A DNA stretch of 64,000 nt from Thermoleptolyngbya sichuanensis A183 (GTDB lineage Bacteria; Cyanobacteriota; Cyanobacteriia; Elainellales; Elainellaceae), in NCBI RefSeq assembly GCF_013177315.1, contig NZ_CP053661.1:3906001-3970000 (forward strand). Direction: 5' to 3'. The first letter of the stretch is position 1; the number at the start of each line of letters is the position of its first letter. The notes under the pieces were generated by a model. The model was not told where the DNA came from. It searched no databases and saw only the letters and a program-made list of their open reading frames with translations. Positions 9,164 through 10,444 of the stretch are shown piece by piece. A program made the position numbers and the translations under genes.

Positions 9164-10444
9164 ATGGTATCGCTTCCTCGCATTATTCTTCGAGATCATA
9201 AAGCCGATGCCGTGCGGCGCTTCCATCCCTGGATCTTTTCGGGGGCAATTAAGCGCATCGAGCCGGAGGCTCAAGAGGGAGATTGGGTCGAGGTGTACAG
9301 CGATCGCGGCGAGTTTTTGGCGGCGGGCTTTTTCGGCGCAGGCAGCATTGCGGTCAAAGTCGTTTCGTTTCAGCCCGTTGAGTCGCTAGACGTGCTGTTT
9401 CTGCAACGATTTCAGCAGGCCTATGCGCTGCGAAAACAGTTAGGACTGGCGGCGGGCGGTTCCCGTAGGGATCGCTTTGTGAATCGCCCCGATGCCAACC
9501 CCGATGCTACCTCCCATGCCAACCCCAATGCCAACCCCAATCCCACCAACTGCTACCGTCTGATCAATTCCGAAGGCGATGGGCTGCCGGGGCTGATTGT
9601 GGACTGGTATCACGGCGTGGCAGTGGTGCTGACCTATTCTTTGGGCATGGCCCAGCAGCGCGATCGCATTGTGGAGTGCCTGAAAACGCTCTACGGTTCT
9701 GACCTGCGGGCAGTGTATGACAAAAGCGCGGCCGTGCTGCACGGGGGCAAGTCTCAGCCCACCAATCAATACCTGTTTGGCGAAGCAAACCTGGGCGAAA
9801 AGCGGCTAGGCGAGGTGCTGGAAAATGGGCATCGCTTTGCGGTGGACTGGGAAGAAGGGCAGAAAACGGGGTTTTTTCTGGATCAGCGCGACAATCGCCA
9901 ACTGCTGTCGCAGCACGTCGCCGGAAAGAAGGTGCTGAATACGTTTTGCTATTCCGGCGGCTTTTCAGTCTATGCCCTGCAAGCAGGTGCGGCGGTGGCG
10001 CATTCGGTGGATAGTTCCGCAAAGGCGATCGCCTGGACAGAGCAAAATGTCTCGTTGAATCCGGCAACCCCAGGCACTCACCAGTCCTACACAGCCGATG
10101 TGTTCAACTTTTTGAAAGACTGCGACGATGACTACGACGTGATCATCCTCGACCCGCCCGCCTTCGCCAAATCCCTCTCCGCCCGCCACCAGGCCACCCT
10201 GGCCTACCGCCGCCTCAACTATCTCGCCCTCCTCAAAATTCGCCCCGGCGGTCTGATCTTTACCTTTTCTTGCTCCCAGGTCGTCTCACTCGACAATTTC
10301 AAAGGAGCCGTCACCGCCGGGGCAATCGATGCAGGCCGCCCCGTGCGACTGCTCGGCCACCTCAGCCAGCCCGCCGACCACCCCACCAGCCTCTACCACC
10401 CGGAAGGGCAATATTTGAAAGGGCTAGTTTTGGAAGCGGGATAA
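9164..10444 (+). CDS. Class I rRNA large-subunit methyltransferase (RlmI/COG1092 type)
   Basis: This 426-residue SAM-dependent RNA m5C methyltransferase starts at ATG 9164. The N-terminal PUA-like domain (RIILRDHKADAVRRFHPWIF, about 5-80) binds RNA. The Rossmann catalytic part has VLNTFCYSGGFSVYAL (motif I), the motif IV-like DYDVIILDPPAFAKS and the terminal TFSCSQVVS with its Cys. E. coli RlmI makes m5C1962 in 23S rRNA; the exact site here is inferred. Residues ~97-129 are an insertion made of a palindromic element and a 12 bp tandem array, placed before the conserved CYRLINSEGDGLPGLIVDWY. The frame is kept. Confidence 0.9.
   Translation: MVSLPRIILRDHKADAVRRFHPWIFSGAIKRIEPEAQEGDWVEVYSDRGEFLAAGFFGAGSIAVKVVSFQPVESLDVLFLQRFQQAYALRKQLGLAAGGSRRDRFVNRPDANPDATSHANPNANPNPTNCYRLINSEGDGLPGLIVDWYHGVAVVLTYSLGMAQQRDRIVECLKTLYGSDLRAVYDKSAAVLHGGKSQPTNQYLFGEANLGEKRLGEVLENGHRFAVDWEEGQKTGFFLDQRDNRQLLSQHVAGKKVLNTFCYSGGFSVYALQAGAAVAHSVDSSAKAIAWTEQNVSLNPATPGTHQSYTADVFNFLKDCDDDYDVIILDPPAFAKSLSARHQATLAYRRLNYLALLKIRPGGLIFTFSCSQVVSLDNFKGAVTAGAIDAGRPVRLLGHLSQPADHPTSLYHPEGQYLKGLVLEAG
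9455..9489 (+). repeat. Palindromic dispersed element, copy A, in frame in CDS
   Basis: This ~33 bp copy of the element is also found at 36437, 42672 and 63408. The order of blocks is GGTTCCCGTAGGGATCGC then TTTGTGAATCGCC. The ends are imperfect inverted repeats. It encodes GGSRRDRFVNRP inside the methyltransferase. Confidence 0.88.
9491..9550 (+). repeat. 5 x 12 bp coding tandem repeat (ANPN)
   Basis: Five 12 bp units based on gatgccaacccc directly follow palindromic copy A and encode DANPDATSHANPNANPNPTN. The array is in frame and falls between the two conserved domains of the methyltransferase. Confidence 0.92.

Follow-up and report, generated by a model that had tools for sequence, protein, structure and literature searches.

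A probable SDR5-type 24-bp repeat at a HIP1-like site, beside a 12-bp array, in the RlmI-like gene of Thermoleptolyngbya sichuanensis A183

An RlmI-like methyltransferase gene in the window (the whole 64,000-nucleotide stretch of DNA that was analysed, part of the 5.5-Mb genome of Thermoleptolyngbya sichuanensis A183, here G000) runs through a palindrome and a 12-bp tandem array without losing its reading frame, which raises the question of where this DNA came from and what it does to the protein. A preliminary description, made from the letters of the window, had taken palindrome and array together as mobile repeat DNA turned into a protein linker. Our analysis indicates that the palindrome is very probably an SDR5-type 24-bp mobile repeat lodged in a HIP1-like octamer, next to which a 12-bp array probably expanded by slippage. 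The features of the locus are as follows, with G001 denoting a same-genus relative (a contig of 'Cyanobacteria bacterium J069', a MAG that is 85% complete).

9164..10444, + strand: RlmI-like class I SAM rRNA methyltransferase gene (426 aa; PUA_3 at residues 7-69, methyltransferase domain from ~residue 128)
9455..9458, + strand: putative left part of the HIP1-like target (GGCG of GGCGATCGCC), seen at empty sites of other loci and proposed here from GGAGATGGCC in G001
9459..9482, + strand: probable 24-bp mobile unit, consensus ATTCCCGYAGGGATCGCTTYGCGA; equivalent placements are 9460-9483 and 9461-9484
9483..9488, + strand: putative right part of the HIP1-like target (ATCGCC), from the copy alignment and empty sites
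9491..9544, + strand: 12-bp tandem array of 4.5 units (DANP DATS HANP NANP NP), absent from relatives

The protein displayed a PUA_3 match followed by Methyltrans_SAM, and the top match among solved structures was E. coli YccW (PDB 3c0k, E=2e-70). It combines the PUA-like and class I SAM methyltransferase domains of RlmI-type proteins with their conserved DPP and FSCS motifs, which are invariant in the aligned homologues (D330 P331 P332 and F368 S369 C370 S371). The top NCBIfam models were RlmI-type equivalogs, each scoring below its own cut-off, so that we call the protein RlmI-like without naming its rRNA target. The insert sits between the two domains, as had been described, and the frame remains open across both palindrome and array, the conceptual translation of the region including GGSRRDRFVNRP and HANPNANP. 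In the AlphaFold2 model (mean pLDDT 84.5), residues 99-124 form the sole stretch below 50, flanked by well-folded domains, and are thus predicted to be a disordered linker between two intact domains, as expected of a linker that is tolerated.

Comparison with relatives showed the extra DNA to be specific to this lineage. The gene carries 81 additional in-frame bp (27 residues) relative to G001, where the DNA is 82% identical across the gene, the flanks show no break and exactly 81 bp are missing. Matches to homologues in 60 related genomes are interrupted at residues 96-126, and the extra block is unique to the window's protein in alignments with 11 RlmI-like relatives and with 23 sequences ranging from cyanobacteria to Bacteroidota. 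The preliminary description had proposed alignment with close relatives as the check; the absence of the residues from the same-genus relative supports insertion, and no aligned homologue, distant ones included, shares the linker. The claim of a lineage-specific in-frame insertion therefore stands, with its size corrected from ~33 to 27 residues against the nearest relative. At the site, G001 reads CTG GCA GGA GAT GGC CCC ACC AAC and the window CTG GCG GCG, palindrome, array, ACC AAC, and the 81-bp difference can be accounted for by the 24-bp unit, ~4.5 array units (54 bp) and one codon. The best explanation of the insert is that its two parts have separate origins, one a 24-bp mobile unit and the other a local 12-bp tandem expansion.

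The palindrome, correctly placed inside the gene by the preliminary description, lies at 9455-9488 and reads GGCGGTTCCCGTAGGGATCGCTTTGTGAATCGCC. It is one of 82 matches to GGCGATTCCCGYAGGGATCGCTTYGCGAATCGCC found in G000 at ≤3 mismatches, against 0 for the reversed control, and the family numbers ~80 to 90 copies in this genome and 24 in G001. We aligned 92 copies (≤4 mismatches), which share a conserved block of 36 bp (G-GGCGATT...AATCGCC-C) between random flanks. Three further copies occur in the window:

36436..36469, - strand: family copy within a coding-like + strand ORF of 999 nt; common to G001 (L270)
42671..42704, - strand: family copy, apparently intergenic
63408..63441, + strand: family copy inside a long coding-like ORF (GRCPQGSLCESR)

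Among the genomes of the class that were searched, the family was present in 26 of 390, spread over 6 of 160 genera; these carriers belong to the Leptolyngbyaceae and a few other genera, and none was found in the other searched genera of the host's own family. A copy was also noted within a restriction-modification M-subunit gene on the Planktothrix agardhii plasmid p1 (NZ_LR882935.1; L254:1501-1532). The IMG/VR viral contigs held no exact-match copy. No replication-strand bias of the copies was visible, the GC skew being too flat for placing the origin. Genome-wide, 16 neighbour pairs lie within 5 kb of each other, where ~6 were expected, which suggests that the element spreads locally or that some genes tolerate it. 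Three to four copies lie close together at G000:C1:1307800-1308013 and at 615519-616492, three of them in one 720-nt ORF.

The size of the mobile unit was first hinted at by a net difference of 8 residues between proteins with a filled site and their counterparts, and was read directly from orthologous loci of the two genomes. Opposite seven copies in G000 (170506, 291906, 1618153, 2270391, 2921792, 3432112 and 3815580), G001 has an intact octamer of HIP1 (highly iterated palindrome), GCGATCGC, and is shorter there by exactly 24 bp; opposite an eighth (455415) it has GCGATTGC. The reverse was also observed, with three G001 copies (L264, L271 and L273) facing intact HIP1 in G000, and other copies are common to both genomes (1157973, 2557015 and 3127838 in G000; L259, L265, L270 and L272 in G001). 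The net difference was 24 bp at every clean empty site. The mobile unit is thus 24 bp, inserted precisely and site-specifically into HIP1, and the outer arms of the palindrome are the ancestral octamer split at GCG^ATCGC. The position of the junction is ambiguous by two bases: entry behind nucleotide 3, 4 or 5 of HIP1 leaves an identical sequence, which can be interpreted either as a 24-bp unit that causes no duplication or as one of 22 bp accompanied by a 2-bp AT duplication. A 36-bp insertion, considered on the basis of the conserved block, was dropped given the 24-bp net difference at empty sites. Because presence and absence occur in both directions at a motif that is unrelated to the element and abundant, insertion best explains the copies. 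The target-like 10-mer GGCGATCGCC occurs 5122 times in G000, 4049 times in G001 and 115 times in G014, a genome in which no copies of the element were found.

At the RlmI-like gene itself, G001 has GGAGATGGCC, two mismatches from GGCGATCGCC, and no relative keeps an intact HIP1 there; by extension from the other loci, we infer that HIP1 was probably the ancestral state. The proposal of mobile DNA accordingly needed trimming at its edges. The palindrome does belong to a mobile family, for which some orthologous HIP1 sites are occupied only in G000 and others only in G001, but the mobile part is a 24-bp unit in a pre-existing HIP1-like site and not the palindrome and array as one repeat, nor even the whole palindrome, the HIP1 arms being ancestral in the family.

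The array tells a different story. The preliminary description counted five 12-bp units, and Tandem Repeats Finder (TRF) confirmed an array (9487-9545, 4.9 copies, 80% match, score 69), which we place at about 4.5 units: GATGCCAACCCC, GATGCTACCTCC, CATGCCAACCCC, AATGCCAACCCC and AATCCC. Similarity of this site to other family copies stops at the palindrome, and in ~1.5 Mb of other sampled sequence the 12-bp unit occurs at two isolated places only, neither beside a palindrome. The idea that the array is part of the same mobile DNA was not borne out, as it accompanies no other copy; local expansion by slippage would be the simplest reading. The array stays in frame because its unit equals four codons. 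Elsewhere in the window, perfect tandem arrays occur at 17939-18008 (13 bp x 5.4) and 54064-54149 (17 bp x 5.1), both apparently non-coding, and ordinary-looking RTX-like calcium-binding nonapeptide repeats (GGxGxD type) lie at 24236-24709 in a long minus-strand ORF.

The 24-bp unit reads as a pair of adjoining mini-hairpins (TCCC-GYA-GGGA, then TCGC-TTY-GCGA), with GGCGAT on one side and ATCGCC on the other. Compensatory stem changes were observed between genera (TCCGGGACGGA and TCGTTTCACGA), with stem variants including TCCG-GGA-CGGA in genus g95 and TCGT-TTC-ACGA in genus g119. Across genera, 56 distinct sequences, gathered at a 3-mismatch limit that constrains the variation visible, yielded 13 double stem changes, where shuffles averaged 1.8 and never exceeded 6. 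Copies within G000 showed no covariation beyond shuffles (4 double changes versus a mean of 3.2), so that support for the fold comes from the between-genus comparison only. This pattern fits a fold that would matter to the active element and would not be maintained after insertion. On the Nostoc sp. C052/C057 plasmids (L276-L281), we noted a single instance of a site with the same layout in other letters, GCGAT[CACCTCCGGTG][GGCGGTTACGCC]ATCGC, with related k-mers occurring three times in 300 kb.

Small dispersed repeats (SDRs), SDR5 among them, were reportedly described in Nostoc and relatives by Elhai et al. 2008 (Genome Res. 18:1484), as families of 21-27 nt with a shared compact stem-loop structure. 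The present unit, at 24 bp, falls within that range, forms compact stem-loops and has a secondary structure with compensatory changes between genera. SDR5 of cyanobacteria is reported to insert precisely between nucleotides 3 and 4 of HIP1 (PMC4390886), and our element likewise lies precisely inside HIP1, placement after nucleotide 3 being one of three equivalent alignments. In junction, size and fold the element matches what is reported for the SDR5-type, HIP1-targeted kind of SDR. A search of 300 kb of Nostoc plasmid DNA that allowed 9 mismatches, by contrast, gave no copy. Its host range differs from the one reported for SDRs, as it is found in the Leptolyngbyaceae and a few other genera, and here it is inserted in frame in conserved genes. 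That last feature is shared with the Rickettsia palindromic elements, which are inserted in frame in protein genes and apparently tolerated (PMC10969869, PMC3733652); those elements, however, are ~150 bp long, occur in Rickettsia and have no HIP1 target, whereas this one is 24 bp, site-specific and cyanobacterial. HIP1 supplies both outer arms of every copy, but is itself an over-represented octamer and not a dispersed 34-bp repeat, serving here as the target.

Several other readings of the locus were weighed. One holds that no insertion took place and that the relatives lost a linker which their ancestor possessed. It draws on the fact that presence and absence alone cannot polarise two genomes; yet the same-genus relative and every other aligned homologue lack the insert at this gene, the outgroups thereby refuting it there. 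Elsewhere each deletion would need to be exact and to restore, every time, an intact copy of HIP1, a motif that is abundant independently of the element. This reading is extremely improbable. It is also very unlikely that the family is not mobile and that HIP1- and GATC-rich composition together with drift produced look-alikes by chance or gene conversion. The outer arms are indeed HIP1, present thousands of times, and some copies do cluster (the 16 pairs within 5 kb), but a 34-bp consensus with 82 copies against 0 control matches and exact 24-bp presence/absence polymorphism at HIP1 in both directions speak against it. Arrival of palindrome and array together, as a larger element or through transfer of a diverged allele of the gene, would explain why both fall within the same 81-bp difference. 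We regard it as decidedly unlikely, given that similarity to other copies goes no further than the palindrome, that the 12-bp unit recurs only at its two places away from palindromes, and that the gene around the insert matches its same-genus orthologue without a break, at 82% identity.

The alternative with somewhat more to recommend it, though still unlikely, is a REP/RAYT-type repeat moved by a Y1 (HUH) transposase. Like REPs and REPINs, the element is a short, dispersed, non-autonomous hairpin repeat; RAYTs occur in cyanobacteria (PMC6006769), and G000 encodes one Y1_Tnp protein (426653-426988, 292-aa frame). However, the consensus GGCGATTCCCGYAGGGATCGCTTYGCGAATCGCC lacks a GTAG or CGTC tag at the foot of the hairpin. 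GYAG lies instead in and beside the loop (GYA, with C and T about equal), and half of the copies read GCAG. The Y1_Tnp gene does not adjoin the element, having no copy nearer than ~20 kb (the nearest at 406786 and 455415), and the 85%-complete G001 has copies but no Y1_Tnp match. REPs are also typically extragenic (PMC3733652), whereas these copies are mostly intragenic.

Under the preferred reading, an SDR5-type insertion with a separate slippage array, the 24-bp unit would have entered, in trans, an octamer that was HIP1 or resembled it (GCG^ATCGC) and that lay where the gene encodes the linker from the PUA-like domain to the methyltransferase domain. The neighbouring 12-bp sequence would then, or independently, have grown by replication slippage to ~4.5 units (54 bp), leaving a disordered and dispensable linker without known function. 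It is likely that some factor acting in trans recognises the two hairpins as single-stranded DNA or RNA and joins this form to a break in HIP1, and candidate machinery for recognising the fold may be a nuclease, a recombinase or RNA-based. No mobilising enzyme was identified; G000 has a single Y1_Tnp gene and a single reverse transcriptase gene, and neither profile tracks the element across genomes.

The consequences for proteins were assessed from the 92 aligned copies, the flank and ORF work covering ~28% of the genome (stretches around copies plus two 200-kb blocks). Coding-like ORFs contain 66 of the copies (72%), as compared with 74% of random positions and 81% of GGCGATCGCC sites, and these in-ORF copies occur in both orientations and all three phases, with no frame running into a stop. 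In conserved proteins with a copy, relatives run across the site without the 8 residues. As the unit amounts to 8 codons and is stop-free in all six frames, the RlmI-like gene would have stayed open and gained 8 residues from it. Relative to the phases expected from HIP1, the favoured phase encodes GDSRRDRFANR or GDSRSDPYGNR; this bias gave an odds ratio of 2.2 (p=0.0025) against all GCGATCGC sites with one copy per ORF, and 3.6 (p=0.013) with matched flanks, a modest effect that suggests selection at the protein level. A stronger bias (Fisher p=4e-9) was rejected, being inflated by comparison with the 10-mer GGCGATCGCC only.

To our knowledge, the movement of ~24-bp repeats is unsolved and the function of HIP1 unsettled. 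The present observations tie HIP1 to site-specific insertion, and the cleanly reciprocal sets of occupied and vacant HIP1 sites in G000 and G001 make rate, target and mechanism testable in a culturable type of organism. They also show, concretely and repeatedly, how mobile DNA can lengthen conserved proteins and leave the frame unbroken. More tentatively, and with slightly less than even confidence, we suggest that this element, which would rank with the smallest units of mobile DNA, exploits the thousands of HIP1 motifs in the genome as landing sites and may recurrently generate 8-residue in-frame insertions in cyanobacteria, the survivors being filtered by selection on the peptide.
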